A stretch of 64,000 bases of DNA from Thuidium tamariscinum (Eukaryota > Streptophyta > Bryopsida > Hypnales > Thuidiaceae). Of the stretch, positions 6,163 to 42,885 are shown piece after piece (position 1 is the first letter of the stretch; every line of letters begins with the position of its first letter). Made by a program: the position numbers and the translations under genes. Location of the stretch: positions 18,742,501 to 18,806,500 of the forward strand of contig OX344754.2 of the NCBI GenBank assembly GCA_947034885.2, in the 5' to 3' direction. The notes under the pieces were generated by a model. That model was not told the DNA's origin, searched no databases, and saw only the letters and a list, made by a program, of their open reading frames with translations.

Positions 6163-6472
6163 ATGGGTACTGCTCATTGCAACAGCACTGCTTTACTAGC
6201 TAGCCGATTAGCTATTGAAGAATGGAGTAGCGGAATCGGTGCAACAAAATTTCAAAGGAGACGAATTTTACAACTGCTCGACAAAGATACCTTGCTGCGT
6301 AGAGCTGTTCGCAAAGGAATAGAGAAGACTGACAGTCCGCGTGGCCTTCGATTCCTGTTCCGCTACCACACCACAAGAATTCTTGGGTGAAAGCGATGAG
6401 TCCCTGAGGGTGACGCCACCGGTTTCAATAGTGCTGTAAACGAAGCGCTCCGAGTCCTATTGTGGCCAGACA
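6163..6472 (+). pseudogene. piggyBac 1 accessory N-terminal module (PRGLRFLFR)
   Basis: From an ATG at 6163 the frame reads to ...LLRRAVRKGIEKTDSPRGLR and FLFRYHTTRILG. It then meets TGA at 6388 and again at 6397, and continues as VPEGDATGFNSAVNEALRVL and LWPD. The second element has the same segment without those two stops (LLRRSVKRGVKRKDNPRGLR ... ALRVLLWPD at about 41590-41773), so the segment was protein-coding in the common ancestor. The domain is not one I recognise. It is arginine-rich and could bind DNA, but that is a guess. It may be a separate small protein or a 5' exon of the transposase. Confidence 0.6.
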
Positions 6473-6847
6473 ACAAAAATGGACCTCCTAGAGAAGTGGT
6501 CGAATCTTCCACCGCTCGAGAGCCTTGACGTCGTGCCCTAGGAAGATGTGTTCGCCGAAGTAAGCAATTTCTCTGCGATGGTGGGCGAACTCAAACCGGA
6601 GCATGCCGTTTCTACTCGAAAACGTCCTAGTGACAGTGTCGTGGGCCTGCGCATTTCGAGGAACATGATCACATCATCAACATCCCACAACAAAGCCCCA
6701 ACCACAAAGAACAAGCGACAACAAAGGGAGCGGTTGAAGAGTCCTGAAGCAAGAGAGGATCTATCAGTTCAACACATGCCTTCTCATGTCCCTCAGACGA
6801 CGAACTCGCTTACGTGAAACATCGATGTGCAGAAGTCGGCTCCAACT

Positions 6848-9595
6848 ATGCACGACATCAGTAAGCCACTGGTTTGGAGAGGTGACCTATACGCACTTAT
6901 GGAAGCTGGAGAGGCGTGCTTGCCTGCATCGATAATGGAACCCACTCCTGTGAGGATTCGGCGATCAAGTGTACCGCAGCTTCAAGAACGACTTCTCCAC
7001 TCAGATATCGACGATTGGCTCGTCGGAATGGCTATCCAGTCATACATACAACATGGGCGACGGGAGCTCATGTACATCATTCTACTCGATGACGGAGATG
7101 AGATTCACGTACCTTGCGGACAAGTTGAGCGCATTCAATTGGCACCGGAGCTTCACGACAGCGAACACACAAGACATGCAGCATCCACAGAAGGAGAAAA
7201 ATACCAAGGTCACCCATCGTCGCTAGCTAGTCCCAATGATATCGACAACTGCATTGACGGCATCTACGTACTGAGGAAGTTCTCTTCCCAGCAATGTGTG
7301 GAGCAATCACACCTGAGAGATTCTCAATCGCATTCCGTCGGGAAGCCCCCTCGTCATTACGCGCACTCTGTGTCAACTTCAGAGATGCTCTCCACTCCCA
7401 GAGATCGACATTCCACTAAAGGCATCCCACACACCAGTTGTGGTGCAGATCCTATGCAAGCAACGCGTTCCAAACTGCTACCAACGCCTACATTGCCAAC
7501 ACAAAGCGAGGACTTCCTACCTCCTTTCAGCCCTCTATTCCGCACTCATCTGCTAAGTGGAAGCATTCGTCCTCCCAAGCAGACATTGCTCATATGCGAA
7601 AGCATCGGTGCTGAATGCACAGACGCCTCTAGAGGACCTACTCAAGGACGTGCACAACTTCCCAAGTCAATACAACATGCGAATGGAGATGCAGCAGCTC
7701 CATCAACAAGGGTCGCGGCAAGTACGAGTGCTGTCCCTACTAGAGCACGGAGGAAGAAACCAGTTCAAAAGCACATCAACGTGAACAACACTGACGCCGT
7801 AGCAGCCGGGCCCTCCACTCAACATGCCTTTTCCACTCTAGTAGCTCAAGGAGGTGCACGGAAGGGAGAGTCATCAATCCAAGCGCCATTGTCGCTGACG
7901 GAGATGGCCGTTGGAAGATCCGTTGATGAGAGGGCCGCAAGCCAGGTGGGCCCTGACATGATGGCCCCTGCACCGAGTCGTCATGCTCGTATTCCACGTC
8001 CAAGTACTAAAGCTGCAGAAGCTGCTGCCTTTGCCAGCGAGTTTGCAGAGGCGACGTGGATGACGAATCACGCCACCTACTTACATGACCGAGTCCGCTT
8101 CACAGGTCCTCTACCGGGCCCATCATTTCCTTATCGACGCTTGGCATCGAAGGTCAGTATATTTGGTCGCTTCTGGAGTGAGAGGACACTTCAACGAATC
8201 TGCGACGAAACCAACAGATATGCCAGCGAGATTGATTCGGCAAGCAAGTTACCGATCGGAGGTGCGCATTGGTGGGCGCTTAGCCCGATGGAACTTCGAG
8301 CGTTTTTTGGAATTTCTTTCCTTATGGGGATCAAAAAAGAGCCTAATCATAGATCCTACTGGAATAAGAAATTTCCATTCTTGTATTGCCGAACCATAGC
8401 AAGCACGATGTCTCAGAGTCGATTTGAGGACCTCACTCGCTGCCTGCATGTATGTGATGATGCAATGCTGGACAGAGAGGACATGACAGCGGATGAGAAG
8501 AAATTAGCCAAGCTGAGTTGGCTCATAGCAGAGGTGCAAGGAAAGTGCAAATCGAATTGGAACTTACACAGGGAAGTCACCGTGGATGAATCCATGGTAT
8601 GTTACAAAGGCAAGTATTGCCCAATACGTCAGTACATTCCCAAGAAGCCCACAAAGTGGGGAATCAAGATCTGGTGTTTGGCAGATGCTCAGAAGAAGTA
8701 CGTATATGACTTCGATGTTTACACTGGTTCTTTGAAGCGAATTGGTCACAAGCGTGGTGAGCCTCGAGGTGCGAAGACACCTTACGAAGTTGTCATGCTC
8801 TTATTGCGCGACTTGCATCATAGAGCACACGTTGTTGTGACTGATTGCCTTTTCACGAGTGTGAATCTTCTCGTAGACCTGTGTGCCCTCGGTACGTATG
8901 CGACCGGGACAGTCATGAGTAACCGGCGTGGCCTGCCGAGGTGCTTAGCGCAACGACAGTTATTTGCTGGTGCAACCCAAGGTACCGTCGAGTGGCGCAT
9001 GCATGCAAGTCGGAAATTGAGTTGCGTGGTCTGGGTGGATCGCAAGGCCGTGCTACTGCTCTCATCTTTCTACCCACATGTATCGCGTTTGGGTGAAGAG
9101 TGGCCGACCGTTCCCCACCGCGTGAATGGAAAGGAGGAACAGATAGAGACCTCACCAGTGCACAAAGGTTACACCACTTTTATGCGGGGTGTTGACGTTG
9201 CCGACCAAATGAGGGGGGTATACTCGTCACAGCCACGAAGCCAGAAGTGGTGGCACAGGCTCTTTTTTTACCTACTCGACACAACCGTTTTGAATAGTTT
9301 CATACTTTACGAGGCTATGTGCGAGAGATTGGTGCAGAGGACTATTCCTCGACGGGAGTTTCAGTTGAGCTTGGCGGAGGCACTCTATAAACCGTGGGCA
9401 GTACATCGTGGATGCGTCTCTCAATTTCGACTTGCTATCCCCGCAGTTCATACCCTCGTCCGGACAAACAAACGGAGGAAGTGCAGATTCTGTTTGTCGA
9501 AGACAAGAACCAACTTCTCATGTGTGCAGTGTGGAGGCCTATATTTTCACCTGGGAGATTGCTTCACCGGCAGTCACTTTTCCCTCCGTCGCTGA
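6848..9595 (+). CDS. piggyBac transposase with Tudor-like N-terminus
   Basis: A 915-residue ORF counted from the first ATG at 6848; the frame is open back to 6827. Residues 9-97 form a module shared with element 2: WRG..., a proline-bearing middle, then AIQSYIQHGRRELMYIILLD and DGDEIHV, which resembles a Tudor or Agenet fold. A long low-complexity linker follows to about residue 385. The DDE_Tnp_1_7 core runs from about RFTGPLPGPSFP and FWSERTLQRI to the YLLDTTVLNSFILYE region. Catalytic aspartates are visible at D580 (VTVDESMVCYKGK), D666 (VVTDCLFTS) and D783 with D786 (GVDVADQM). The second block has C where most relatives have N (DN.FTS). The tail (C879, C882, C892, C895, H901, C905, H910) is the usual cross-brace zinc finger. 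The enzyme should cut and paste at TTAA. Relatives are commonly about 600 residues, so the N-terminal extension is long. A spliced upstream start is possible. Confidence 0.85.
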   Translation: MHDISKPLVWRGDLYALMEAGEACLPASIMEPTPVRIRRSSVPQLQERLLHSDIDDWLVGMAIQSYIQHGRRELMYIILLDDGDEIHVPCGQVERIQLAPELHDSEHTRHAASTEGEKYQGHPSSLASPNDIDNCIDGIYVLRKFSSQQCVEQSHLRDSQSHSVGKPPRHYAHSVSTSEMLSTPRDRHSTKGIPHTSCGADPMQATRSKLLPTPTLPTQSEDFLPPFSPLFRTHLLSGSIRPPKQTLLICESIGAECTDASRGPTQGRAQLPKSIQHANGDAAAPSTRVAASTSAVPTRARRKKPVQKHINVNNTDAVAAGPSTQHAFSTLVAQGGARKGESSIQAPLSLTEMAVGRSVDERAASQVGPDMMAPAPSRHARIPRPSTKAAEAAAFASEFAEATWMTNHATYLHDRVRFTGPLPGPSFPYRRLASKVSIFGRFWSERTLQRICDETNRYASEIDSASKLPIGGAHWWALSPMELRAFFGISFLMGIKKEPNHRSYWNKKFPFLYCRTIASTMSQSRFEDLTRCLHVCDDAMLDREDMTADEKKLAKLSWLIAEVQGKCKSNWNLHREVTVDESMVCYKGKYCPIRQYIPKKPTKWGIKIWCLADAQKKYVYDFDVYTGSLKRIGHKRGEPRGAKTPYEVVMLLLRDLHHRAHVVVTDCLFTSVNLLVDLCALGTYATGTVMSNRRGLPRCLAQRQLFAGATQGTVEWRMHASRKLSCVVWVDRKAVLLLSSFYPHVSRLGEEWPTVPHRVNGKEEQIETSPVHKGYTTFMRGVDVADQMRGVYSSQPRSQKWWHRLFFYLLDTTVLNSFILYEAMCERLVQRTIPRREFQLSLAEALYKPWAVHRGCVSQFRLAIPAVHTLVRTNKRRKCRFCLSKTRTNFSCVQCGGLYFHLGDCFTGSHFSLRR

Positions 9596-10926
9596 AGGAA
9601 GTTGAAAGTAGTCGTCGTCGGAGGGCGTGGAGGCGGCGATGAAGTTGTGGGTGCATGGGGAGTCACGTCCAGGAGGGAGTGATTTCTCTGTCATTGTATA
9701 GTGTGACATTTTTTTTTCATCTCACGTCGGCAATTTCTAGAGTAATTACCTCTGCTGTTTTATACGGTCCTTTGCGTTGGCGGTTTCGATTTGACATCGA
9801 CATCGGCAGTCAATTTGGTCTATGGAGCAACCACTGCATCTGATGTTTCAAGCTCCTGTTGATGTCGATCACTACGAAGGGCAAGACTTCTCTGAGAGTG
9901 GAAACACTTGTCAAATTTTGAAGCTGCTGTGCATATGATCGAGCACAGCACTTGCCGCCGTCGACGTCCATATGAATGCGGAAATTCACATCACGGCAAG
10001 GTAGGTATTGATCCACCTTCATCGTTGTGTGTCACTTTGATGAGCTTTCAGGAATTCTGCATGTGCATGCTGACGTGCCTCCTGTGGAATTAGCAATGAC
10101 TCTTGCCATGCAGAAGTGATGGAGGCCAAAAAAACGGTCGATTCGTAGTTTCAGGCCGGCCGGACGTTAGTTGCAGTACAATAATATAATTTACTTTATA
10201 AAACAACTTTGATTCCTACTGACTAAATCCCGAGCTTCTGTTCGAAACGTACACGTACTTAGCATTCATAAGATAAATGGTCCCACATGTAAGTTAACAA
10301 GTCACTGGCACGGGAGCAAGTTTGGAACATCTGAATTTTCAATTCTTTTATTTATTGTTGGCACAAAAAAAAAATTCAATTAATATGAGTTTCGATCCCT
10401 GGGTAATTGTATATGTCTTTGCATCTTTTGCAATCTGCACTCAGAACTAACTCGATCTCACAGGGGGCTCGTACTTGACCACTGTCGTACTCTAGTTGCT
10501 TTTGGATGTGCTGTCTTTTAATTTAGAGTCAATCGATAAATTGATTTACAAGGAGTTTCGAGATTGTGGAGAGACACAGCCGAAGTAAATTCATGTTGAT
10601 GTGATAAAATCAAATAGAGTTCACTGTTTCTCGATGATCAGATTTCGTTATGCTAGTTTCTGAGTCTAAGCGTATAGAAGTAGTGTTAGCTACTAGAACT
10701 GACGTGTCTGCAGGCTGCCGTTGGAATCACATTCACAGGAGAAGGTTACTTTCAATTGTTGCAGTATTATTCATGTGCTTCCCTTTGAGGAGCAAGCACA
10801 AGTTTGTTCTGTTCTTTCAAATATGGTATGTTCATTTCTGTGATTTCATTGTGGATAAGAATGCTTACATCTGTGTCTGAAGTCGTGACTTGTGAATAGA
10901 AGGAAGACGGTAGTGACTCCTGCAAT
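9596..10926. other. piggyBac 1 right internal region
   Basis: Downstream flank of the transposase inside the element. No open frame with a recognisable domain is visible. It presumably includes the transposase 3' untranslated region. Confidence 0.4.
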
Positions 10927-11218
10927 ATGGATCAGGCAGCGAAGTTTTCAAAATCCACCATGACTTCGAGAAGTTCTTGAAGCGATTCAGATGACGTTGG
11001 GGATGCAGTGGCCGCGGCAGTACTTGTAGGAGGACGTACTCGGGATATTAGCTACAGATATCGAATTGGGAGGCACACCTTCCAAGGACTACAAAAAGTG
11101 AAGGTGCAAGAGAACTGATGAGGGGTGTGTGTGCACATACTCTCGTCTTCATAAAAGAGCAGGATGTAGTGCAAAGCTCCACTGAAAGTGGTAGACTTGT
11201 GGAGCACATACGCATGGT
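10927..11218 (+). pseudogene. Possible FLYWCH-like zinc-finger remnant in piggyBac 1
   Basis: From the ATG at 10927 one frame reads MDQAAKFSKSTMTSRSS, a stop, then SDSDDVGDAVAAAVLVGGRT and RDISYRYRIGRHTFQGLQK. One base on, the next frame continues with RCKRTDEGCVCTYSRLHKRA, GCSAKLH and, after two stops, TCGAHTHG. Taken in order, the spacing of aromatic residues, the C...GC.A.L pair and the final H.H resembles a FLYWCH or MULE-type zinc finger (Y.Y....F....WRC.....GC.A.L....H.H). A TGA stands where the tryptophan would be. No counterpart was found at the same place in element 2. The match is by eye and the piece is clearly non-functional. Confidence 0.35.
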
Positions 11219-12092
11219 CTTGTGATTTCATTTGGGTGTCGGCATCACAAAGACTATGCCATTTTCATGTTTTTCGTACATGCTAACGAAAATCATGGCT
11301 AATATATCTCTATGTGAATAGCAAATCGAAAATCATTGCTAATATATTTCTATGTGAATAGCAGAGGTTTGGTGTTTGAGTTGCCATTGCTATGGAAGAA
11401 TGCAACAGAGATTTGCGGTAATTCGAGTCTGGGGGGAGGCAATGTTGTCGGCCGATGTCCACAGAAGCTCTCCGCATGGGACAGAGGAATGAACAGGAGA
11501 ATATAGCCATATGCTCGCTGACATCACTGTCAGTGATAAACACATAAAGAAATTACACCTCGGGTCAAGAGCACATTTCTTAGTCATTTCAACAACACGT
11601 TCCTCATATTATATGGAGTTTAGTAATTGACGTTGGGCAGGCCAAGAGTCGGGGCAGCTCTGACCGCAATCGGCTTCTTCACAGACATCGAAGAACGTCT
11701 TTGCATTACAAGCTCCTCATATTCTGGAACGCACAACTGAAGACCACGAATTGGACACAATCATTGTCTTAACGTCTTCCTCTTACCCTAGCATTTTCTG
11801 GAGGATTTTTTGGAGCTTTTCTCTGGCTGTGAAGGCTTCACGAACAAAGAAGAGATCTTCTGCCCGTCATGGTCAACTGCTCATTCGTCGCAGTCAAAGC
11901 TTATGATCTGTGCATCGCCGAACTTCTAGATGAAAATCCAAGCGCTGGCGAAGAGTATGCGTCGTAATCCTCAAGATCATACGGCAACTTCTGCGATTCC
12001 TATGGTCGATGTCGAACTACTAGAGGCTGCAAATTCTGCAAGTTTTCAGTGTCGTGGCACTTCCCAAATGAGAGTCGACGCTCCAAGGTTAA

Positions 12093-12547
12093 GCATCTCA
12101 GTTCCATTCCTATCAACGAAGAGGGAAATCCGCCTATTACCATCCTGATTTGCAATATGACTATCTTGGGCTAATTTCATGAGAGGCACACATATTGTAC
12201 ATGTGTGTACTTATTTCATGAATCAAACTCAAGTAGAATTATAATTTTCTGATAAAAATTGTGATTTCTCTTAATTTTGTAAGTAGCCAATCTTGAAGTT
12301 ACAAAACCACTTCTAAACTAGGGTCATAAACAACTCATAAACATCCTATAGCCACCGTATCAAGTAGTAAATATTCTCTATTGAAGAAGTGACACATTAC
12401 TTCAATTTATCATAAAATCCTTAATTTTGTCAAAGAAAATTTTGATTTTGTTGTAAGAAATCTTGATTTTGTCATAGAGTGAAGGGAAGGGGAGGGGAGG
12501 GGAGGTGGAAATGGGACCAAAAGTAAGTGATGGAATTGGGCTAAATT
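12093..12547. other. AT-rich spacer with a G-quadruplex motif
   Basis: Sequence between piggyBac 1 and a MITE. The only structured stretch is a run of four G-tracts at 12484-12502 (GGGAAGGGGAGGGGAGGGG), which satisfies the G3+N1-7 rule for a DNA G-quadruplex. No gene is visible. Confidence 0.55.
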
Positions 12548-12947
12548 AAGGTAGAACCACCCATAATCAATCATTGAAGGTATTCTAGACATGATCCAGT
12601 GTAGTGCAAGGCATAGCAAATATTTTCAAAGATGCAATGATAGAAATGATGGAATTACAAAGACTTTGGTGATTTATAGCATGAACTGAAATTACTATGA
12701 ATTTTGAAAGACAAAAAGCACGCCAAATCCATAGCGAATTTTTGAAGTCTTTTAATTCATATCATTCAAAAAACTACTTTCACATTCACTACTTCTTACT
12801 TTCTTGCACACTATTTTGGAACATGTGTCATAAACTTTTAGTCCCAACTTTGAAAGGGAGAAAAACATACATTCTAGCCTTAGTTGGAAATACATCAATC
12901 TATAGGTTGGTTATAGGATGCTAGTTGGTTATAGGTGATTCTACCTT
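12548..12947 (+). mobile_element. MITE family C, copy 1 (AAGGTAGAA ends)
   Basis: A 400-bp element with terminal inverted repeats of about 23 bp. The left end starts AAGGTAGAACCACCCATAA; the right end, reverse-complemented, starts AAGGTAGAATCACCTATAA. Two further copies lie at 14505-14802 (same strand) and 27044-27415 (opposite strand), sharing interior blocks such as TTCTTGCACACTA and AACATGTGTCAT. TA or ATT flanks both ends, so the superfamily (Tc1/mariner or other) is undecided. The short ORF inside is repeat sequence, not a gene. Confidence 0.6.
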
Positions 12948-13499
12948 ATTTGATGAAGTTGCCAATGAAGTTGGGTTACAAATAGTTATGGGTTGGTCTA
13001 TTTTAGTGAAAAATCATATTGAAATCAAAAAATTACTATCATAAGTTCATCATTTTTATGTCATATGCCACAACAAAATATAAATAAAGTAATTTTTTAA
13101 TTTTTAAAAACAAAAATAAATAAAAAATCTATAATATTCATATTGTACATCCAACTACCACAAAACAAAGTCCTACCACCCTTCCTTACCAAGGGCCTTC
13201 TAATAGTATCAAAAACATGATTAGTTGATGCATGGTCTAGGAAATCTCATTGTTGCAAACAACTCATTTTAAAGATATTTAATGGATGGATGGATTGCTT
13301 TGAAAAAGAATTGACAATTTTTCATCCTTTCTCCATATATAATAAACAAATTTTAACTCCTACACACAAGTTCAAACCAATTCCCATCACTTTTTTCACA
13401 TGTTTAGCTTCATAAGCCATTTCTTATGAGTGTTTATAAATGCAAAGACAAGCTCTTTATATAAGTGAAGTGGTAGAAGGTAAAACAAGCTGTATGAAA
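12948..13499. other. AT-rich, no gene seen
   Basis: Low-complexity AT-rich DNA between two MITEs. No coding or structural signal stands out. Confidence 0.5.
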
Positions 13500-13852
13500 C
13501 ATAAGAGGATTTTTGGGCCCCCAGAAGACCGTTTCAAGGGTGTTCCCCGAAATTGTTCCCACTGCTGCAGAGTGCAGACCAGCCCCCTGCTGGTCTGAAT
13601 TTTTGAATTTGGAAAAAAAAATTAAATTTTTTTTTTCAAAAAACTTCAGAATGTATTAAAGAGAAAAAAAAATGATTTAAAAAATAAACTTAATTTATTT
13701 TAATTAAAATTAAAATTAAAATTACTAAAAAAATATTATTTTCTGGCGTGGCAGTCGCTCGACCACATCAGCGTCGCGTTCCCAAAGTTCCCAATATGTT
13801 CCCAACGTTTGGGAACTTGCAGTCTTGTACAGCAGCTGAAAATCCTCTTATG
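13500..13852. mobile_element. MITE family B, copy 1
   Basis: A 353-bp element whose ends pair as CATAAGAGGATTTT and AAAATCCTCTTATG. It contains repeated GTTCCC/GGGAAC blocks near both ends around an AT-rich core. The same layout (GTTTCAAG..., GTTCCC, AT core, TTTGGGAACT) recurs at 28234-28544 in diverged form, so this is a small family. No clean target duplication could be fixed. Confidence 0.55.
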
Positions 13853-14504
13853 TATGTAAATTAGGATTAGTAAAGAGAAACTCAACCTACTCATAGTTAA
13901 CCCCTAACTACCCAATCAACCATATATAATCGATCTGAAATTTCAGGCCCATTTTTGAATGGGCAATTAAATTTCTTTGATTGTTTTAAAAAAAAGAATC
14001 AGGCAGTTTTAAGAGTTAACTATTGAAAACTTTCATTTTTCATTGAAAAAAGTACATATTTGATTATTGAGAGGTCTTCAAAGGCATACATGTACCATAA
14101 GTGAAGTGTAAAGCTTGCCAATTTTACTTCATTTCCTAACTTTATCCAATTTCACTTGATTTGAGATCTAAGAAATTGTACATATCCATTTGCTTTGAGA
14201 ATGGTTTCAATAGAAAGAGAAAAGTGTTTTCATTATATTCACCATTGAAAATTTAAACATACAACTATTAATTTGGAGTTATTTTCAATTTCTACTGATA
14301 AAAAATAATTTCATTTCAACAATTGCAAGGTGTATTGTGTAATGAATTTAATAGCTTTATGTGAAATTAAGTTTTTTAGAAGTGCATTTTAGTGTGCTAA
14401 CATTCTTTGTAGTTTTTATGTCACCTCCAATCCCCAAAAAAATTTATATGCAAATTTGAGAAAGATTGTGGGAAAAGACAATATACTAAATATAAAAAAT
14501 GTAC
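13853..14504. other. AT-rich, no gene seen
   Basis: AT-rich spacer. No open frame with a recognisable domain and no clear inverted repeat. Confidence 0.5.
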
Positions 14505-21251: not shown

Positions 21252-21814
21252 ACTGTTTCATAGCCTTCTATAGGAGCGTTTCCAAATGACCGGTTGGTTT
21301 TTGAGCCTACTACCATAATTCATAATTGACTAAACATATGCTAATTTCCAATGTAGAGAAAGTTGCAAATTGGCTATCAAATTCCCTTGTTTGTTGCAGT
21401 TTTGGCCAACATGCTTCCTATAAAGACCTCTTTTTTACTTGTAAGAGTAGTGCAAGAATTTTTTTTTGGTAAAAAACCAGCTAATTTTAGCCAGTTTTGG
21501 GATTGCTGCTGTTGATCTTTGAGCAGGATTGATCCAAATGTGTTGCCCAACAGCCCATACTCATTGTCTTCTTCAAAGCAGACAACGAGCAAGTGAGTCA
21601 GGACCTTGAAACTCGGACTTGGCATTATGGGCCATAGAATTGTCTGATCTCTTTAACAAACATAACTTCTTCTTCTTCTTTTCGAAGCAAATGAAATCAA
21701 AGGTATCTTCTTCATTTTGGCCCCACTCTACAAAGATTCTGCACTCCTTTACATGACTAGCAGATGAGATTCTCTACAAAGGTCTATGATTGTCGAAGAG
21801 ATTCTGAATGTAAC
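21252..21814. other. Unique spacer, no gene seen
   Basis: Flank of the Harbinger-like element. Nothing recognisable on either strand. Confidence 0.45.
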
Positions 21815-22739
21815 TTAGGGTATGTTCCCACCTGCTGTTAGTAAAATTTTAGGTGCATTTACAGGGGGCGTGGTTAGACAGAATGTCCCTATCGAGCCTC
21901 TTTTGGGGCAGGGATGGGATGCGGGCAGATCAAGGGGCTGCTCCTCACCCTTCTGAGGACCCATCAATCTACTTCCAATTCCTGTTTAAATTTGATTTTT
22001 CTAACAAAGTAGATGAGAATGCTATAGAACACAAGATTTTCAAGAAGAAAATTGAAGTACTGATGTGAGTTTTGTGCCACATGTTCATGTATGCCTCACA
22101 ACCAATCGTAGATTGAGATGGGAGAGGAGAGAAACTCTTTATATTAGTGGAGTAGTGGTGGGTGAAACAAACCATGTGGGATATGTGATTTAGGAGAAAA
22201 AAAAGCTCCTCCATTCATGGTTGTGGAAATGCAGGAATTGTGATAAAAGTCAAATTTCAGACCTCATTTAAACATAGTAGACTGTATTCTTTCAAAAAAC
22301 TTCAAACTAAGAAAAGTTGGGGATTCAAGTGAAATTTTACCTCTAAAAATCCGTTTGAGATTTCAATACTCCACCTAATAGTTATGGACAAATTTCAGAG
22401 GAAGTGTTCAAAAATGTCCCCAAAATGTCCTTTCCACACACACACCTCTAGAATTTGTCCAAAACTCTTACGTGAGGCTTCAAAATCTCAAGTGGATTTT
22501 CAGAGATAAATGTTAGCTTGTTTCTCCCACTTCTTTTAGTTCTATTTTTTTTAAAAGAAGCTATAATGCAATGCCCAAATGAAGTCTAAAATTCAACTTC
22601 AAGCACAATTCTTGTGTTTCTAGTTACATCTCAGTATTTTAAGAACTTTAAATCAATATTTCACCATTATTGAAACAACATAACAAATATAATGTAGACA
22701 CTTAAGGTTGTCTAAGCAATGTGACAAGTTATATTGAAT

Positions 22740-22880
22740 CAATGTTGTGAATCAAAGGTATTGTGTCAATAATTTGAATATGGTGATGTAGGAATGTTGA
22801 ATCAACAATTATTCAAAGATATTGTTTCACATTTTCAATATGGTGGTGTAGAATATTGGATCAACAATTGTTCAAGGTTG
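22740..22880 (+). repeat. Tandem units in the Harbinger-like loop, copy 1
   Basis: Two units of about 70 bp with the shared pieces CAATATGGTGNTGTAG, AATATTG and ATCAACAATT. The matching place in copy 2 (47985-48165, opposite strand) has three units, so the array has changed length since the copies separated. Confidence 0.55.
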
Positions 22881-23934
22881 AATTCTTGAAAATCATCTTC
22901 TACAAGGGTTTCTCAAGACTTATAAAACAAAGTGGTCACTTCATTATGTGTTTGTAAGGGCTGGTTCTATTTTAATGGATTCATACTCTCAAGTTGAAAT
23001 GCTTAAATGTTAATTCAACAATGTGTTGTCAAATTTTAATTATTTTGAAATAAAGTTGTTCTCAAAATTTTGCCAAGAATGCTTTGGGGTTTTAATGAGG
23101 GAATAATACCTTTTTATAATTCATACCTTTCAATTGATGTTGATAGTGTACATCAAAACAACATTCAAATTTTAGAAATGTTGGTGAATATCTTATGCCA
23201 ATTGTTCACCCCTTATATATTGCAAGCACTTGATGATAGATTGATGATGATAAAAGAAACTTATCAATATCCAAAATTCCAATTACTTGAGAATGCAAAA
23301 AGAAACTATTTCCTGTCTCAAGCTAATTAGATTGGATTTGAATATTGTATTGTGATGCAAGTATAGATTTATTTATTTTCTGGGTTTGTATGAGGAGGGT
23401 ATTGTACATACAATAAACCCTTTTTGTTTAGTAGGATGTTAAAGCATGTCAGAGCTCTTATTACATAGAAGGTATCTTACAAGAAATGGAACTTCTTATG
23501 AGAAGGTATAAAATATGTATTAATTTCAAATTTAATTGTCTATTGATGACATGATGTTAAAACAATTTAACTTTTGTTATACATTTAACCATTAGGTAAA
23601 CATGGTAAAATGTTCCATTGTTGTTTCAAATAACATTAGATTAATTTTTAGTTGTGATAGCGTCTTTGAAAAAGTGCAATAATGCATCAAATGTTGAAAC
23701 AACAATGAAATAAGGGTGAAGCAAAATTTGAGGTGTAACCATGAATGGCTTCATTTTCTATAAACAAAATTGAGAAGTGTTGAATATGGTACAATGTTAG
23801 TGGTGGAGTATTATCAATGCAGACCACACCTACATGTGCTATTAATAACACATAACTTTCAAGTACTTGAAAAGTACAATTTTTATTTCATTGCTTGAAT
23901 GAAAGTTTGTTATGATTGACAAAATTTATGCATT

Positions 23935-23948
23935 ACACACACACACAC

Positions 23949-23990
<42 letters not shown>
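23935..23990. repeat. AC/AT microsatellite
   Basis: A short (AC)n run followed by about twenty AT dinucleotides. The same compound repeat stands at the equivalent site of copy 2 (39709-39780), so it was present in the ancestral element. Confidence 0.9.
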
Positions 23991-23994
<4 letters not shown>

Positions 23995-25308
23995 TACAAT
24001 GAAGAGTTGAAAATAAAAACATCACTAAGATTCTCATAAAGTAACTATGCGTATATATGATTGAATATGCAATTACACATTGTTTGTATAAAGAAACTAC
24101 CAAACTCTTCTAGGATTTTAGTGGAAGTTAGTAGAATACTCTAAAATCTCCAAAATGCATCTTTTTTACACATGAATAAATTATGAATTTTCACAATACA
24201 AAAAAATTAGTATCCTACAGCAATATCGTACAAATTAGATAGAAATTTGTAAAAACTATCACCTTAAGAAAAGGATCACAATTGGATTCACTTACTCAAA
24301 TAGAAAATTCTATACCTCTAAGATTATACAACACTCAACACTTTTCAATTTTGTTCATAAAAATTAAAGCTACTAATGGTTAAATAGAAACACAAGAATT
24401 GTGCTTGAAGTTGAATTTTAGACTTCATTTGGGCATTGCATTATAGCTTCTTTTAAAAAAAATAGAACTAAAAGAAGTGGGAGAAACAAGCTAACATTTA
24501 TCTCTGAAAATCCACTTGAGATTTTGAAGCCTCACGTAAGAGTTTTGGACAAATTCTAGAGGTGTGTGTGTGGAAAGGACATTTTGGGGACATTTTTGAA
24601 CACTTCCTCTGAAATTTGTCCATAACTATTAGGTGGAGTATTGAAATCTCAAACGGATTTTTAGAGGTAAAATTTCACTTGAATCCCCAACTTTTCTTAG
24701 TTTGAAGTTTTTTGAAAGAATACAGTCTACTATGTTTAAATGAGGTCTGAAATTTGACTTTTATCACAATTCCTGCATTTCCACAACCATGAATGGAGGA
24801 GCTTTTTTTTCTCCTAAATCACATATCCCACATGGTTTGTTTCACCCACCACTACTCCACTAATATAAAGAGTTTCTCTCCTCTCCCATCTCAATCTACG
24901 ATTGGTTGTGAGGCATACATGAACATGTGGCACAAAACTCACATCAGTACTTCAATTTTCTTCTTGAAAATCTTGTGTTCTATAGCATTCTCATCTACTT
25001 TGTTAGAAAAATCAAATTTAAACAGGAATTGGAAGTAGATTGATGGGTCCTCAGAAGGGTGAGGAGCAGCCCCTTGATCTGCCCGCATCCCATCCCTGCC
25101 CCAAAAGAGGCTCGATAGGGACATTCTGTCTAACCACGCCCCCTGTAAATGCACCTAAAATTTTACTAACAGCAGGTGGGAACATACCCTTACTTGCTCC
25201 GAGACTGACTTGGAGATGACTCATTCTTGGAGGCGATGACAGGAAAAAGGTCGACATAAAGACAACAGAAAAAAAAGGCAACAGACAAGCGTTAGAGCAG
25301 CCCACATC

Positions 25309-25891: not shown

Positions 25892-25893
25892 GC

Positions 25894-34334: not shown

Positions 34335-36123
34335 TTAACCCTGAAATGCCCAAGTCCTCCAAATCTAGTGGTTTGCAAAACTTTGAAACTAAATAAAACT
34401 TAACCAAGTTTCTATTTTTAGTAGTTTATATATTTTTAATTTCTTTTTGAAATCTAATTTTAGCATCAATCCACTAATCTTGTAAATGATTGACTATGAT
34501 TTTTCAGTTCAAAATTTTGTGCAAGGTTTTCTGTTGCAATCTTGACTTTTTGTAGGGTTGAGGGCTCTTGGAAATGAGCCTCAAATACATTAAATCTTAG
34601 AAAAGAAGCCACATTAGAAATTCATTTAAAAAAATTATAGATTAGATTTTGAGAAGCCTTAAACTAATTGGAGATATGCATGTTAGCCCTTTTTACCTCA
34701 TATTTCTTTTGGTGACCAACTTGTTAGATTTGACATGTGAAAAGAGGATTGAAAGATTTGAAGCCACTTCTCAAGTTTTAACACTAGCATGATCAAAGAT
34801 TATAATCTTCCAATCCATAAATGATATTGTTGTGTTTTCTTTTCCTTAGTGCTATCTAATATGTCTAGTTCAAGTTTGTAAGGTTACTTTTGAAAAAAAG
34901 GGTTGCTAATTAAGATTGTAGTAATAGGTGGTTGGCTGAAGCAAATGAGAAGGTTTAATAGATGTTGATAAAGCTTATCAAATGTTGGCTTTTTGTTCAA
35001 TTTTTAATTAGTCCTAGAAGAGTAGAAAAAGTCCTTGGGCATTCAAAGAGTTAAGGTAGAACTAAATCCAATGCCATCAATCACCAAATTCCCACATCTA
35101 TTGGACCTTCCCATTTGTATTAATCACCCGCCCATTACTACAATCTTAGCAATTTTTTGGCATCATGACGATGCACTTGGAAAAGGGACACATCCACATA
35201 TGGTTTAGCATAGGTCAACCAATACTACACCAAATTAGCCCTAATAAACTTTAAGAAAAACAAAAAATTAATTTCTTGTTAGAACATTTGGATTCTACTT
35301 GCAAATGACTTCTCTCAAATTTCTCAATCTCTAGAAGAAAAAAATGTAAGTTAACAAGTAACATTACTTCTCCAAGGTAACTACATTCAATAGGGTTTTA
35401 AGGAGACCAAAAAATTAAAGAGATTAATTCTAAAAATCTATAGATATTTGAAATATAATGTACGATCCTTTTACAAGTCAAATAAGGTAGACATGCCAAT
35501 CACCACAGAGGTGAAATTCAAATCCTTCTCCACAACCCTACATAGACTTGTACAGTCTCAAACTTGGCTTGATTATCAAATGCCATGTTAAGATTTAAAT
35601 TTTTTTGGAATGCGCAAAAATGTTTATTCTTGCTATTGTTATTTCAACTTTAGATTACAAAATCTAAAATTGAACAAAAAAGTCCCTGCAACCTTTCACA
35701 GCATAGTGTGCGGTGCTTGTGTGGTTGCCAAGAGAACTAATTCCTGTATTGATTCCTATAGCAATTCCCATAGCGATAGAAATTCACCTAAATGTGCGTT
35801 CCCATTGTTATTGACATTGTTCCCAACTTTCAATACTTGAGCGTTTCTTGTCCAGTCAATGTCCGGTTTTATACAGTGTGTGGTTAATGACATATTTACT
35901 CTACTTGTTGATGTATAAAAAAGATAGATATTTACTTAGTGAGAAATGTTGATTAATTAGTATGGTCCCCTTAATACCCCAAAATCTGCTTGTAATTCAC
36001 ATGTTACCTTACCACTTGATTTAAAAAATATAAACTACTAAAATAGCAACTTGATTAGGTTTAATTTAGTTTTAAAGTTTTGCAAACCACCAAATTTTAG
36101 TGACTTGGGCATTTCAAGGTTAA
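34335..36123. mobile_element. TTAA-bounded non-autonomous element, piggyBac-like ends
   Basis: TTAA at 34335-34338 and 36120-36123 flank 1.78 kb. The left end reads CCCTGAAATGCCCAAGTC. The right end, reverse-complemented, reads CCTTGAAATGCCCAAGTC. The inverted repeat runs about 95 bases inward (to about 34433 and 36024). No transposase is present. A further end-like sequence (GGGCATTCAAAGAGTTAA, 35035-35052) inside suggests a second, nested or older terminus. A related copy starts at 63778. CC(C/T)T ends with TTAA targets suggest mobilisation by a piggyBac-type enzyme, but only the terminal bases resemble the two piggyBac elements here. Confidence 0.65.
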
Positions 36124-36307
36124 TCCAAAAAACTACCAAGTTTAGCATTATTTTCAGATTTGTATAAATTGCTTTTGACAAAATTCAAGTTGATTGCAAA
36201 ACCCAGCCTCATAATTAAAGATGAGTATGCTATAAATGCAAGAATAAGTTGTTTTTTTCCAATAACAAATGAAAATCCATTGCAAAACAACAAATGTACT
36301 CTGAAGG

Positions 36308-37811
36308 GTTTACCTTACCATGTGATTAAAAAAATTGAACTTGTCCGTACCCTTTCGATGAATGTTTGGGTGGTATTCAAATATGAAAGGTGAAAATCAT
36401 GATTAATGTAAAAAATTGTCTTAGGACTTGTAGTAGATTAATTTTGTCCAAATTTAGGATTTAAGAGTTGTTTGAAAAAAGAAATTCATTTGCCCTTTCC
36501 CTTACAATGAATGTCTAGGTTCTATTGAAATATGAAGGGTGAAAATTATAGGGAGTTATAGTTGTAAAGGCCTCCCCTAGGTATATTTTTGAATTTGTTG
36601 AAAAATCATAATGTAGAATATTGTGAATGGATGGTAGCCACTCCTTCAATGAACTTAATTCTCATGTGAATCATTTGTTTACAAAAACAATCCAAAAATA
36701 CTCATTGGGAGTCAATTTATTGTACAAGATCGACCTTCCTTTTCACACAAACTTCAAAAGATGAACATTTGCACTTTTATCATACAAAGAAGAATTCTTT
36801 GTCATCCATCAAGTACTTAGGGTCAACTTCCATGTAGAATCACGCCTAGAGAAGCCGATGGATGATTGATAGAATGGCAATCTAGTTTTTTTAGGGTTCC
36901 CATCATACCAATCATTGGTGTGCTTTGCTAGTCCCATAATGACATTACATTTACATTATAGGGTTAATTAGAAAGGATGCTACTAACATTTAGTATTTGA
37001 TGAATGACAAGGCATTTTCCTCTAGAGAACAGAAATTCAACTATTCATTCACGGAATTAGGGGTAGAAAGTAGAAATCTTCTATGATACTTTGACTTCAA
37101 GTGAGTGTTTTTTTATATACCAATAATGATTCCTATAATTTCAAAAAGGATAATTTACACATATGTCCTTATATTGTTCTAGGGTTAAGAGCACTTCCAA
37201 TGTTGTTCAAAAAGCCATACGAGAACTCTATTATGACGTGTCTCCAAATTCCCCTACCTTAATGCAACTTGCATGGGCCACTTTTTACTTTGTGTCTTGT
37301 CACTTGCAAAGATAGACTCAACATTTAGAGGAAATTTGAAGAGCCTTGGGAGATGGCATACAATAGCAAAAGTCAACACCTTTTCAACCTTGGTTTCCAT
37401 GCTAATAATGTAACCTCTCCTTTTTTGTATGAAAAATCTATACTTATTAGAGTTAAGTGTAAAGTAAGTGGAATGCCAAACTAGGAGTCGGAGTTTGGAA
37501 AAAACAATGGACCAAACTCCTTGGAGTAACAAAACTTAGGTCCAAAGGAATTTGGTGCCATATTTCATTCCTACTATACTCAGTTATACCTCCTTCTGAC
37601 ACCCTTGTTTCAAACCCGGGTTTCTTTTACAGTCTTAACTCTAGTATAGTATCTCTTGTTTTTTTTTAATATCTTTTTACAATGCAATGAAGGTGCATTT
37701 GGGTTTTGCATTGCCAAGTTTGCATTGGGACATTTTTTTTTCAAAAATTGCCGGAAGAAAATAAGGTCCTCTTACCTCCACTTCAAAACCTGTACACTGT
37801 GCTTATCATAA
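36308..37811. other. No gene; one short direct repeat
   Basis: AT-rich sequence. The pieces at about 36350-36399 and 36492-36548 are direct repeats of each other (shared CCCTTTC, ATGAATGT, ATTNAAATATGAA, GGTGAAAAT), an old local duplication. No coding signal. Confidence 0.5.
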
Positions 37812-38103
37812 GGTAGGGGGCTGTAATTGTGACCCTATCTCTAAAAGCGATTTGGTAGATTTTGCCTCTAACATGTACCGGAAGTGTACATTTCAGGAGG
37901 GGGGCGCTTTTAGAAACCACTTTGTTTTCAACTTCAAAAATTCATAACTAATTTTATGAAGGTCCAAAAAATATGAAATAACTTGGGTTAGATGACAATT
38001 CCATTTTTCTTACCACGAAAATTTACTAAAAATTGTTTTAAGGAGTTTATCTTCCTTCAAATGCAAATCAGCTTGTAAGGGGTTGCTTTTACAGCCCCCT
38101 ACC
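37812..38103. mobile_element. MITE with GGTAGGGGGCTGTAA ends
   Basis: A 292-bp stretch whose ends are the exact inverted pair GGTAGGGGGCTGTAA (37812-37826) and TTACAGCCCCCTACC (38089-38103). The interior is weakly symmetric (AAAGCG and CGCTTT blocks) and non-coding. A clear target duplication is not visible. Confidence 0.55.
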
Positions 38104-38491
38104 TCAGTGTGCTCTGAAGGTTCAATCAACAAACTGGGGGAAGCACTGTGCACCACCACCCCGCTAAGTGTGCTCCCCCTATCGATGCAAGGGTCATAAC
38201 TTTTAGACCAAGCACCATGTCACCAACAAAAGGAGAGATCCAGAGAAAATGGACCTGAACTGTCCAAATTCAAGTAACCCAAGCTTGCTAACCCAAGGTT
38301 GAAAACAAAACCAGCCATTGCATGTAACTCAATGCTCTTGAATTGGTGACCACCCATGACCCATTGCCTCAGAGTTTGACCTGGTATCAAACACCCAGTC
38401 TCCACCATTTTCAACGGGTTTCGGGAATTTCTCAAAAAAGCTATTTTTATGGATCTTGCAAAACCACTGTGACGGACATATTATGCTATTC
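38104..38491. other. Unique spacer before the nested element
   Basis: No gene or repeat recognised. It is the left flank of Harbinger-like copy 2. Confidence 0.45.
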
Positions 38492-39708
38492 TAAGGGTAT
38501 GTTCGCACCTGTTGTTAGTAAAGTTTTAGGTGCATTTACAGGGGGCGTGGTTAGACAGAATGTCCCTATTGAGCCTCTTTCGGGGCAGGAATGGGATGCA
38601 GGCAGATCAAGGGGCTGCTCCACCAGCCCTCTCGAGACCCATCAGTCTACTTCTAATTTTGGTTTAAATTTGATTTTTCCAACAAAGTAGATGAGAATGC
38701 TATAGATCACATGATTTCCAATAAGAATATAGAAGCAATGATGAGAATTTTATGCCACATGTTCTCATGAGCCTCATAGTCAATCTTGTAGTGAAGAAGG
38801 AGAGGAGAGAAACTCTTTATGCTAGTGGAGTAGTGGTGGGTGAAACAAACCATGTGGGATATGTGATTTAGGAGAAAAAAGAGCTCCTCCATTCATGGTT
38901 GTGGAAATGCAGGAATTGTGATAAAAGTCAAATTTCAGACCTCATTTAAACATAGTAGACTATATGTTTTCAAAAAACTTCAAACTAAGAAAAGTTGGGG
39001 AAATAATTACACTTTTACCTCCAAAAATCCGTTTGAGATTTCAATACTCCACCTAAATGTTATGGACAAATTTCAGAGGAGGTGTTCAAAAATGTCCCCA
39101 AAAAATGTCCTTTCCACACACCTCTCTAGAATTTGTTGAGATGAGGCTTCAAAATCTCAAGTGGATTTTTAGAGATAAATGTTAGCTTGCTTCTCCCACT
39201 TCTTTTAGTTCTATTTTTTTTGTTGAAAGAAGCTATTATATGATGTCCAAATGAAATCTAAAATTGAACTTCAAGCACAATTCTTGCGTTTCCACTGAAC
39301 CATTAGTAGCTTCATGTTTTATGAACAAAATTGAAAAGTCTTGAAAATTGTATAATCTTCGAGGTGTAGAATTTTCTATTTCAGTAAGTGAACCCAATTG
39401 TGATCCTTTTCTTAAGGTGATAGTCTTTGCAAATTCCTATCTAGCTTGTACAATATTGTTGTAGGAACACTAATTTTTTAGCATTGTGAAAATTCATAAT
39501 TTATTCATATGTTGTAATAAAAAAATGCATTTTCAGAGATTTTAGAGTACTCAACTGACTTCTACTAAAATCCTAGAAGAGTTTGGTAGTTTATTTATAT
39601 AAACAATGTGCAATTGCATATGCAATTATGTATATATGCATAGTTACTTTATGAGAATTTAAATAGTGATGTTTTTACTCTCAACTCTCCATTGTAAATA
39701 TTTCATTC

Positions 39709-39728
39709 TCACACACACACACACACAC

Positions 39729-39772
<44 letters not shown>

Positions 39773-39780
39773 GTGTGTGT
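39709..39780. repeat. AC/AT/GT compound microsatellite
   Basis: (AC)n followed by (AT)n and a short (GT)n tract, making the block partly self-complementary. It is orthologous in position to 23935-23990 in the other copy. Confidence 0.9.
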
Positions 39781-39908
39781 AATGCATAAGTTTTTTCAAT
39801 CACAATAAGAATTGTACTTTTTAAGTACTTGAAAGTTATGTGTTTTTTAATCGATTTGACAAATACTAATTGTTAACCCTTTAGCGGGCGAGCGTCCATT
39901 TTATGGAC

Positions 39909-41508
39909 GATGCACAGAGCACATGTGCTGTATTTTGCAAAGTGTGCTGTCTTTTCATCCATCCTTTTCGGAGATGCTACCTGCAGTAGTTGGCCATTGA
40001 AATTGAGGAATACCACATCTTGCAATGACGTGAGTATTTTCTGAGTAAATTCTGAGTGCGCACATATCTACAAACGCTGAAATTTTTGTTGACCTTGAGT
40101 ACGACAAACATTATTTCAGGGACCTGCCCACTTGCTCCAGCTATTGCAGGGCAGCGACCTCCTGCCAGTTTTTCGGTGACCTCCATGTCGTCAGCAAAGG
40201 ACTGCAATAAATGCTGCCCTTCTTATTTTATTCTCAGACGTCTGCAATACACGTACACTTCTGGATGAAGAGTGCCATTCAAGGTATACAACAGTGCCAC
40301 ATGTCACATTCCTCTACCTGTGACTATGCTTTCACTAAGAAGAATACGAGGATGGGTTTTTTATATTCCTCCTTTTCCTCGAATTCAAGAATTACAACAC
40401 TATATCTTCAATGCTACCTCTCGAAATCAGCACCGCACTATGGCGCGTGAATACTCTACAAGCCTGTCAGAATACTAGCATGTATCTTTGTCCATTCCAC
40501 AAGCCACTGTTCATTGTGTGCGCGTTCACTCCCAGAATTTATTACCTCCTCCGTAAGAACACAGAATGTCCACAATTGAGACATGGAATATGCACGCAAA
40601 AGACAGTACACTTTTCACTGCAGTACACTTACTCCTTTAGCCAATGCTGTACTGCTTTTCAATTATTTTGGTAATGCACTTGCAATTAGTAGTCGTCAAA
40701 TAGCTATTGCGCTAGACTGAAGTAATTCTTGCTCTCCACTCCTGTTCAGTGAATAAAAACATTTGCATTCTCTTCTTATAAGCCTCCTCAACTAGTCAGA
40801 TTTCCCTCCTCCTCTTTCTCTAGAAAACTTTCTTGTAAAAAATTTCGACTTCAATTCTTCTTTTGTATAGCGACCTTTTTTTTCCATTGCAATAGTCCAC
40901 GCAAATTCTTGTCATCCTCCTCTCTTCTCTGCGCCACTTCCGTTCACATTTCCTACATTCTCAGTACTGTAGTGTACGCTGTTCGCTTGGTCTTCTTTTT
41001 TCACTATCGCTCTCTGCTGATGTTGTCCACAGTGCCTCCCCAGTAGAAATTCCTCATGCCGCTGACGCAGTGCTTCCTTGCCATGCAGCACTTCTCACTT
41101 CGATTTCCAGACATCTGAAATTCCATTCTCCTGTTCCTGCGAATACCTGCAGTCCCTTCCACTTCTGTACACCGACCTCAAGCTAGTTTGTGACATTCTC
41201 TCGGGACACCGTACAGCGTCGTTCTCTGGATTGCTAGATTAGCGGTCTTTCTGTTGTCATCCTCCCAGGTCTCTACGTGTATAGTACTTCGCTGGAACTG
41301 CCGTTCTCAGTCGCCCTCATTCGTTATCCTCAGCAATCCAGTTACTGCTCCTTCCGTAGTAGCTCTTTGTGCACAGTGCAGCAGTTGTCGACTACCATGA
41401 ATTCATATTCGTGGCAGTAGTTTTTTTTTTGGTTTTTTTTTCCCACATGGCCGACGTCCTCACTTCCACTTCACTTCATCATCCCAATCTCCCACTTATT
41501 CGTCAAAC
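39909..41508. other. piggyBac 2 left internal region, pyrimidine-rich
   Basis: Non-coding leader of the element. From about 40,780 to 41,470 the plus strand is markedly rich in C and T with many CTT and TCC steps. This would suit a leader or promoter of the transposase transcript, but no specific element can be named. Confidence 0.4.
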
Positions 41509-41602
41509 AATTAGTACTTGGGCTTCTTCTGTAGGAGCATCATAGGTTCAAACTCGCCAAATCCTTGGGCTTCTCGATCGTCGACAACTGCTTCGAAGAT
41601 CA

Positions 41603-41824
41603 GTGAAGCGAGGAGTGAAGAGAAAAGACAATCCTAGAGGGCTCCGTTTCCTTTTCCGTCATCACAGTGCTCGCATTCTAGGGTGGATAGAACGCATTCC
41701 TGAAGGCCACCCCCAGGGATTCTCAGAAGAAGTCAACCACGCACTCAGAGTCCTTCTGTGGCCTGACATTCCTTCACGTCCTTGCATTTGTCGAGTGTGC
41801 TCTTGTACTACAGTGGGCCAGTAA
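41603..41824 (+). CDS. piggyBac 2 accessory N-terminal module
   Basis: A 73-codon frame from ATG 41603: MKRGVKRKDNPRGLRFLFRH, HSARILGWIERIPEGHPQGF, SEEVNHALRVLLWPDIPSRP and a short tail. The frame is open further upstream from about 41555 with ILGLLDRRQLLRRSV. It matches 6163-6472 of element 1 over about 70 residues with the cores PRGLRFLFR, RILG, PEG, GF and ALRVLLWPD unchanged. The function is unknown to me. It overlaps the next frame by a few dozen bases, so splicing or a separate small protein is possible. Confidence 0.55.
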   Translation: MKRGVKRKDNPRGLRFLFRHHSARILGWIERIPEGHPQGFSEEVNHALRVLLWPDIPSRPCICRVCSCTTVGQ

Positions 41825-41886
41825 CTACAGGAGCTCCGCAAGCGTCCACGCTGTTGCAGGACTGCCTCGCTCGCGAAGTGTTCACA

Positions 41887-42885
41887 ATGCCGTCCAAGAA
41901 AGAAGGTCTTCAGGGCCCTCACCAAATTCGATACAGAACTCGATCTTTTACAAAATCAGCTACATTTACGGAGTCTGACTCGTCAGCACAGGACTCATTT
42001 CGCAGTTCCCGCAAACGTAAAGTCAGCGAAGCTTTTGATGATGACCAGGAATCGACACCGTTGGGCCAACACACGGCACCACTCATGCAGCCCCAGCCCA
42101 CACCGAACATGCTCCAGACAGAGGACCTACCTACTCAAGCGACAGCGTTTGCATCCTCGGCATCAATGTCAGAAGCCTTCACCGACGACATGTGCATCTT
42201 ACCTTGGAGAGGCGAACGATGGTGTGTCCGCTTGCAAGTTCAAGGTCGCATTACTCCATCAAGCAATATTCCGATCCCGGTCCGACTGCCTTCTTCGTTT
42301 CTCAGTCCCCGTAGACCATCAGAGACTTCGAACGCCGGGTGCAGCGTTCAGAGCTCCTACATTCCCTATGTCCCTGATCCTGATGGACTTCCATGGATTC
42401 TGGGCTTAGCTATACAAGCTTATGTCCAAGTTGGACGACAACAACTCATGTATGTCATCATGTTAGACGACGGAAGAGAGCTTCATGTCTCCGCTGCAGA
42501 CGTCGAACCCGTGACCATTGTCAGTCGGCATCAGGACACATACTTCAGTCAACAAGAAATTGGAACCTCATTAGATGCAACGATGGAACATGACGTATCG
42601 TCCATGCACATATACCATGACAGCAATACCTCTGTGGAGCGCATGGAGTCCTTCTTGCCGCTCTCCTCTGCCACTGCTACTCACGATGACGATGTTGATG
42701 ATGAATCATGGGAATCATGGTATGATTTCGCCAACTTCAACCTGGATGACAAATACGAGAACTTCAAAGCCGGTGACGCGCGCACTCCACTATCAACACC
42801 GCAGGCTATTGCGGAGGCATCCCAAGCGTTCACCGATGGCGACCCTGGTTTCCGAAATGCAGGAGCACTCCTCGAAGGTATGTAA
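41887..42885 (+). CDS. piggyBac 2 Tudor-like accessory region
   Basis: A 332-residue frame counted from the ATG at 41887. A basic nuclear-signal-like stretch (SSRKRK) lies near residue 43. The segment at about residues 107-209 (PWRGERWCVRLQVQG, then AIQAYVQVGRQQLMYVIMLD, DGRELHVSAADVEPV) aligns with residues 9-97 of the element 1 transposase. In element 1 this is continuous with the transposase; here the frame ends at 42885 and the transposase resumes in another frame at 42941. GAAG/GTATGT at the end looks like a splice donor, but no acceptor that restores phase was found, so a small length change is more likely than an intron. Confidence 0.5.
   Translation: MPSKKEGLQGPHQIRYRTRSFTKSATFTESDSSAQDSFRSSRKRKVSEAFDDDQESTPLGQHTAPLMQPQPTPNMLQTEDLPTQATAFASSASMSEAFTDDMCILPWRGERWCVRLQVQGRITPSSNIPIPVRLPSSFLSPRRPSETSNAGCSVQSSYIPYVPDPDGLPWILGLAIQAYVQVGRQQLMYVIMLDDGRELHVSAADVEPVTIVSRHQDTYFSQQEIGTSLDATMEHDVSSMHIYHDSNTSVERMESFLPLSSATATHDDDVDDESWESWYDFANFNLDDKYENFKAGDARTPLSTPQAIAEASQAFTDGDPGFRNAGALLEGM

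Follow-up and report, generated by a model that had tools for sequence, protein, structure and literature searches.

The window, a 64,000-nucleotide stretch of a moss genome (C6:18742501-18806500 of the 363-Mb, 19-contig Thuidium tamariscinum assembly that we searched), holds two decayed copies of piggyBac-superfamily transposons (Table 1). Both terminate in short imperfect inverted repeats with TTAACC ends, and the DDE core of element 1 matches PF13843 with an E-value of 2.6e-71, bearing out the piggyBac identity assigned in a preliminary description of this DNA. The core of element 2 matches the same family as three frame-shifted pieces. Stops interrupt both ORFs of element 1; in element 2, ORF1 holds a stop and the ORF2 frame is broken in more than one place. 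A single-sequence search identified piggyBac (6x67) and piggyBat (9c0f) as the nearest solved structures, with the core alone aligned. All three catalytic Asp motifs are present in element 1 (W1); across 28 loci, decayed copies included, they were found in 19, 22, and 25 using strict patterns that we assume to represent the piggyBac catalytic triad. The C-terminal Cys-rich zinc ribbon pattern was detected at 17 of the 28 loci, W1 and W2 among them, with most of the others ending before the ribbon region in the fetched or matched stretch.

Table 1. Parts of the two piggyBac elements, numbered from the first nucleotide of the window
Feature	Position	Strand	Remark
Element 1, decayed copy	4743..12092	+	TTAACC at either end
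Element 1 ORF1, M1-bearing	6163..6528	+	in-frame stops at 6388-6390 and 6397-6399
Element 1 M1 domain, arginine-rich, predicted helical	6223..6468	+	
Element 1 ORF2 frame	6479..9595	+	+1 relative to M1; ATG at 6479
Element 1 M2 domain, predicted Tudor/SH3-like barrel	6875..7138	+	
Element 1 DDE core and C-terminal Cys/His ribbon	8138..9592	+	PF13843 at residues 446-828 of the 6818 frame
Element 2, decayed copy	39873..46927	+	TTAACCC at either end
Element 2 ORF1	41447..41824	+	126 codons including stop; in-frame TAG at 41543-41545
Element 2 ORF2, 5' part	41887..42885	+	M2 at 42205-42513
Element 2 ORF2, remainder	42935..45573	+	DDE core (PF13843) and zinc ribbon

Two modules, here termed M1 and M2, lie ahead of the core in both elements. 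M1, approximately 85 residues long, had been assigned to the transposase polypeptide, a placement that the reading frames do not support: it resides outside the transposase frame, in an ORF1 that starts from an ATG of its own and overlaps ORF2 in the clade of element 1. The element 1 transposase frame, previously taken to begin at 6848, is in fact open without interruption from 6818 to 9595 and extends back through two stops (6539-6541 and 6815-6817) to the ATG given in Table 1. The intervening 6542-6814 stretch gives a weak Pfam match to zf-CCCH_Mcm10 (E 0.0065, under the family cut-off). In element 2, M1 extends to 41764 and a CxCRxC motif is situated close to the end of ORF1.

This arrangement recurs among related copies. 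Sixteen window-family loci have an ORF1 ATG, and in 14 of them it is located −306 or −318 nt from where M1 ends; two further loci of that family have no ORF1 ATG. In the overlap clades, the frame encoding M2, the DDE core, and the zinc ribbon is +1 relative to M1. An ATG in the ORF2 frame occurs 4-28 nt past M1 at all 16 selected loci; control anchors placed in those frames have one in 87 of 448 cases. The selected loci, a related set drawn from 31 rows, do not include L002 (ATG lost), L024, L032, L039, or element 2 and ten loci of its subclade. The ORF2 frame then remains uninterrupted for more than 900 nt in 11 of the 16 loci and to 886 nt in L015, and is broken within 250 nt in L003, L035, L037, and W1. 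Elsewhere, ORF2 open frames reach 1214 residues. Pooled pN/pS values past M1 were 0.71 for the ORF2 (+1) frame, 0.90 for the M1 frame, and 0.95 for the third frame, calculated from 12 non-independent pairs; the L029/L033/L034 clade, W1/L003, and L002/L003 do not follow the pattern.

The subclade of element 2 is organized differently, with ORF1 stopping soon after M1 and ORF2 beginning, where its start could be placed, about 90-330 nt further on in varying frames. CxCRxC often stands just ahead of the ORF1 stop in this subclade (L009, L013, L014, L019, and L022, and window 41447-41824), and might bind a metal. We also considered leaky scanning as the route to ORF2. Between the two starts, 70 ATGs were seen against 127 expected; out-of-frame ATGs numbered 55 against 83 expected (27 of 29 loci). 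Since this depletion is modest, and is absent in a family with a 1023-residue ORF2 (8 seen, 8.2 expected), leaky scanning was rejected as a general mechanism.

We searched the host genome with the element 1 modules, which returned 82 places for M1 and 72 for M2. Both occur in 67 of the 84 resulting clusters, a recurrence beyond chance, and the claim that two conserved modules precede the DDE core is supported. The M1-M2 spacing is 447-719 bp in 65 of the 67 two-module clusters and 933 and 2471 bp in the other two. The one-module clusters comprise 12 with M1 and five with M2; three M1-only/M2-only pairs less than 8 kb apart look like single elements divided by insertion. Among 20 loci fetched at 10 kb, tblastn placed M1, M2, and the core in that order at 16, including three (L011, L024, and L028) where a long insertion separates M1 from M2. 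L016 and L018 have M1 and the core without a tblastn match to M2, although a later profile search recovered a 29-residue M2 piece from L018; L025 has M2 and the core without M1, and L026 has M1 alone. Six shorter loci (L002-L005, L007, and L008) all contain both modules, with the core start present in five.

Approaching the question from the transposase, PF13843 yielded 659 candidate places in the genome, of which the 116 best-scoring were scored and all exceeded the cut-off, revealing a large, partly recent piggyBac population in this moss. M1 is encoded upstream on the same strand at 109 of these 116 places, with gaps of 0.8-3.9 kb in an 8-kb search range; none was found downstream and three on the opposite strand, with 0.43 expected by chance. 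The M1 places were pooled from four M1 queries into 335 distinct positions, and because the joint M1-M2 span served as the M1 place for element 1 clusters, their gaps are measured from M2. With M1 at nearly all scored piggyBac places, it is no marker of one family, and the earlier notion of a single unusual family falls away. Twelve loci were picked from the 116 by open-frame length to sample other clades, several being mutually related. An iterated profile located M1 in the first ORF of 11 (L029-L039), and the twelfth, L040, has an M1 match at C1:24973986-24974249, upstream of the core and just beyond the fetched stretch. Seven of the 116 places have no M1 upstream; two of these, L043 and L044, contain neither M1 nor M2 within the 2.9-3.0 kb fetched.

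Structure prediction and fold searching, which the preliminary description had looked to for both modules, gave a helical M1 without a fold match and, for M2, a barrel whose nearest matches, Tudor domains, fall short of significance. Both models were built from two-row alignments of the window sequences. For M1, the model has five helices (mean pLDDT 71.4, pTM 0.64), and Foldseek returned no meaningful match (best E 3.2 against the PDB and 1.6 against BFVD). No Pfam family exceeded its cut-off or matched convincingly among 17 members, the best being FaeA in one member (E 0.069), and the M1 profile matched no PDB sequence at E ≤ 10. The helix pattern had suggested a BEN- or Myb-type domain; Pfam, the PDB profile search, and Foldseek do not support either, and no Myb/SANT family was matched by any of the 17 members at E ≤ 1. 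Of the 17 aligned M1 members, 15 have a net positive charge, which is +9 to +11 in the six window-family members; the other two are slightly negative. M1 would add a protein domain without a Pfam model.

M2 varies more. At the same position, with little sequence likeness between them, we distinguish M2a in the window family, M2b in L029, L033, and L034, M2c in L031 and L036 (39 places in the genome), and M2d in L030, L037, and L038. L032 and L040 are marginal M2a members, with 21% and 19% identity to element 1, and the class profiles detected no M2 in L035 or L039. Single-comparison profile-profile E-values were 0.0009 for m2a-m2b, 0.0013 for m2c-m2d, and 0.0029 for m2a-m2d, all at probabilities below 23%; a strong m2a-m2e score is non-independent, with L032 in both profiles. 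Given these weak scores, we rejected one sequence family for M2 across all clades. M1 compared with any M2 class profile gave E 0.058 or worse.

The AlphaFold2 model of M2, from the two window sequences, contains five strands (mean pLDDT 62.9, pTM 0.52). Its best Foldseek match in the PDB is the PHF1 Tudor domain 2e5p (E 0.094, probability 0.85, rmsd 8.0, query TM-score 0.36); nothing fell below E 0.001, and TM-scores did not exceed 0.54 among the first 43 matches. Tudor domains or PHF1-H3K36me3 complexes account for six of the first 10 (2e5p, 2m0o, 6yhz, 6hq9, 4hcz, and 6wav), four of them PHF1. The prediction for M2 is a small barrel that comes closest to Tudor domains, with no significant score. 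Its resemblance to Tudor/SH3-like barrels is in line with the proposed Tudor/Agenet type. At the level of sequence families the proposal finds no support: Pfam searches with 18 members brought up no Tudor or Agenet family at E ≤ 1. The best repeated match was DUF3104 (three of 18 members, E 0.059), no Pfam family exceeded its cut-off, and no PDB sequence matched below E 0.11. Near-invariant aromatic or His residues occupy M2 positions W1, Y/W6, W48, Y57, Y/H67, and H78, and net charge is zero or negative in all 18 members.

Selection on the modules was estimated by the Nei-Gojobori method on diverged pairs. For M1, dN/dS was 0.039 (L017/L022), 0.096 (L007/L008), 0.24 (W1/L002), and 0.34 (L004/L005), although L017/L022 and L007/L008, which supply two of the lowest values, have a dS close to 1 or higher, and the L029 pairs have reached saturation. 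M2 gave 0.145, 0.15, 0.33, 0.37, and 0.375, and the DDE core 0.08 (W1/L002 only). These ratios indicate purifying selection on both modules in most diverged pairs, in agreement with the constraint previously suggested; W1/L003, with an M1 value of 0.64, is an exception. Recently split, decayed pairs, the source of several high ratios, ranged from 0.22 to 0.74, with one M1 value of 0.045. DDE and M1 trees of 24 loci concur on the L031/L035/L036, L029/L033/L034, and window-family clades, and M1 is therefore probably older than the split of these clades. L038 groups with L030/L037 on the DDE tree and, weakly, with L039 on the M1 tree, which has long branches.

The sequences show that the family with the 1023-residue ORF2 was mobile recently and kept both ORFs open. 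Eleven M1 places are identical across 92 residues within an open 285-residue frame, and 11 core places lie in an open 1023-residue frame. The element is about 5.1 kb long with TTAA ends. Two copies are alike for 955 bp downstream and diverge exactly past the right TTAA, and the left end, which could be located in one of the copies, agrees with the right repeat in 14 of its 16 positions.

The order of the modules, their co-occurrence, the separate start of ORF1, the ATG that opens the ORF2 frame just past M1 in the overlap clades, the constraint on most diverged pairs, and the recent mobility of one family are read directly from the sequence. We put at roughly 60% the probability that the moss elements are piggyBac-superfamily TTAA transposons with two encoded proteins and work like PIF/Harbinger elements. 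ORF1 would specify a small, mostly basic protein around M1 with five predicted helices, and ORF2 a transposase. The latter would begin with an N-terminal linker, usually followed by M2 or its positional counterpart (a predicted barrel), and continue through a linker that varies to the DDE core and a C-terminal zinc ribbon. Because ORF1 is conserved and is intact in a mobile family, we infer that its product is a required partner, which may bind the element ends, the transposase, or both, as ORF1 does in PIF/Harbinger. M2 would be a barrel for protein interaction, perhaps holding the transposase to chromatin or to the ORF1 protein. Translation of ORF2 would start at its own AUG, by way of an internal promoter or of leaky scanning, and would not yield an M1 fusion. 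A more far-reaching version, which we advance tentatively and at somewhat less than even odds, describes an ancient two-protein piggyBac lineage. Here, M1 would be a new helical DNA- or transposase-binding domain, supplied from its own, partly overlapping ORF as an obligate partner; the transposase would carry a chromatin-facing Tudor-like barrel that has diversified into several sequence classes, and end recognition and target choice would be split between the two proteins.

Alternatively, M1 could be the N-terminal domain of a single fused transposase, with splicing or a +1 ribosomal frameshift linking it to ORF2. M1 does lie shortly ahead of ORF2 on the same strand, and many loci have an ORF2 frame whose open stretch begins close to the M1 end, slightly ahead of it or behind it. 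We nevertheless judge a fusion unlikely, as the ORF2-frame ATG follows directly past M1 at every one of the 16 selected loci, and the W1/L004/L005/L007/L008/L015 clade has, about 70-80 nt past the M1 end, a PWEEVF-like motif encoded by the ORF2 frame, leaving little space for an intron. The early ORF1 stop and varying ORF2 frames in the element 2 subclade also argue against it. One copy, L042 (C1:49388900-49391400), has M1, an M2d-like module, and the core start in one frame; this apparently arose by a frameshift relative to L038, and we rejected the copy as evidence of a fused protein. An ordinary explanation, that both modules are N-terminal parts of piggyBac transposases generally and have gone undescribed through poor annotation of N-termini, would fit the near-universal presence of M1 among the scored places of this genome. 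We regard it as rather improbable: neither module exceeds any Pfam cut-off, their profiles match no PDB chain below E 0.11, the search that found 6x67 and 9c0f aligned their core alone, and a separate ORF1 departs from the layout that the preliminary description calls canonical.

The remaining alternative, advanced in the preliminary description, makes M2 a true Tudor/Agenet reader of methylated histones that chooses chromatin for insertion. The predicted β-barrel, the Tudor and PHF1-H3K36me3 entries among its leading matches, the acidic or neutral charge of M2, and its near-invariant aromatic or His positions are consistent with such a role. The low-confidence model and its insignificant Foldseek scores, the lack of Tudor/Agenet matches in the searches above, and the strong differences in the module from clade to clade weigh against it. 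In a manual alignment to PHF1, we take M2 W48 to fall at Tyr47 and perhaps H78 at Phe71. Of the four residues that form the PHF1 cage, one or perhaps two would thus be matched, and the equivalents of Trp41 and Phe65 are presumably non-aromatic. Trp41 and Phe65 are among the cage positions, and mutating these residues is reported to have abolished or strongly reduced binding by PHF1 (PMC7492083). The idea has some precedent in brown algae, from which a Gypsy element with a Tudor domain is described (PMC12477816). Histone reading by M2 is possible but unsupported, and M2 as a chromatin-selecting reader seems quite unlikely to us.

With the piggyBac superfamily (T. ni piggyBac 6x67, piggyBat 9c0f, the PGBDs, and Pgm), the moss elements share the DDE_Tnp_1_7 core, TTAA ends, short inverted repeats, and a C-terminal Cys-rich ribbon; they differ in having a second ORF, whose domain is unnamed, and in the additional conserved module that their transposase carries in its N-terminal part. 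Compared with the single-ORF layout of about 600 residues given in the preliminary description, they have a separate ORF1 and an ORF2 that can be twice that length. PIF/Harbinger elements such as Ping/Pong likewise encode two proteins, an ORF1 with a Myb-like domain and a TPase, both of which are required for transposition (PMC2836001). In contrast to PIF/Harbinger, which uses another transposase family and a 3-bp target, the moss elements have a PF13843 core and TTAA, their M1 matches no Myb model, and their ORFs overlap in several clades. M2 resembles the PHF1 Tudor and SH3-like barrels in its predicted strands and in many of its top Foldseek matches, but without a significant score and with mostly non-aromatic cage positions in the manual alignment.

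As a possible histone-reader-like domain on a transposable element, M2 also recalls the chromodomain Gypsy elements and the Tudor-bearing Gypsy-10_Ec32 of Ectocarpus, although those are retrotransposons with the domain at the C-terminus, whereas the moss elements are DNA transposons. The authors of the Ectocarpus report describe the Gypsy element as, to their knowledge, the first reported transposable element with a Tudor domain (PMC12477816). Among the open-access piggyBac papers listed, we found no two-ORF or Tudor-bearing piggyBac, and three queries of IMG/VR returned no relatives. PiggyBac is in wide use as a tool for gene transfer, and a single protein is usually regarded as sufficient for it. 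If the moss lineage keeps a second, separately started small protein at nearly every scored place, it would represent a two-component way of running piggyBac chemistry and would open a route to the question of how TTAA transposons locate their ends and their target chromatin.

Several further features were observed in the window and beyond. A 1.8-kb stretch at 34335-36123 has inverted TTAACC ends (TTAACCCTGAAATGCC / TTAACCTTGAAATGCC) close to the terminal repeat of the 1023-residue family, and looks like a non-autonomous piggyBac relative. Two related repeats with inverted arms of about 0.8 kb span 38489-49110 (arm identity 99.5%) and 21793-25214 (98.6%). Element 2 sits between the arms of the former, which suggests nesting or an inverted duplication. 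An exon-like open frame at 55035-55784 resembles what we take to be the SPX part of a PHO1/XPR1 phosphate exporter. The LEAFY C-terminal family has two matches in the host genome, 0.4 kb apart and probably representing two exons of a single gene; the DNA-binding part reads KMRDYVHCY, with Asp where Arabidopsis has His312, which we take to be the form typical of mosses. Elsewhere in the genome, several piggyBac cores form pairs whose members lie on opposite strands at a distance of 7-15 kb (C8:23933884/23941055, C9:19502615/19517900, C8:19067897/19080436, and C2:19454829/19467871); three of the four pairs have equal or nearly equal core scores, and the pairs could be inverted duplications or paired insertions.
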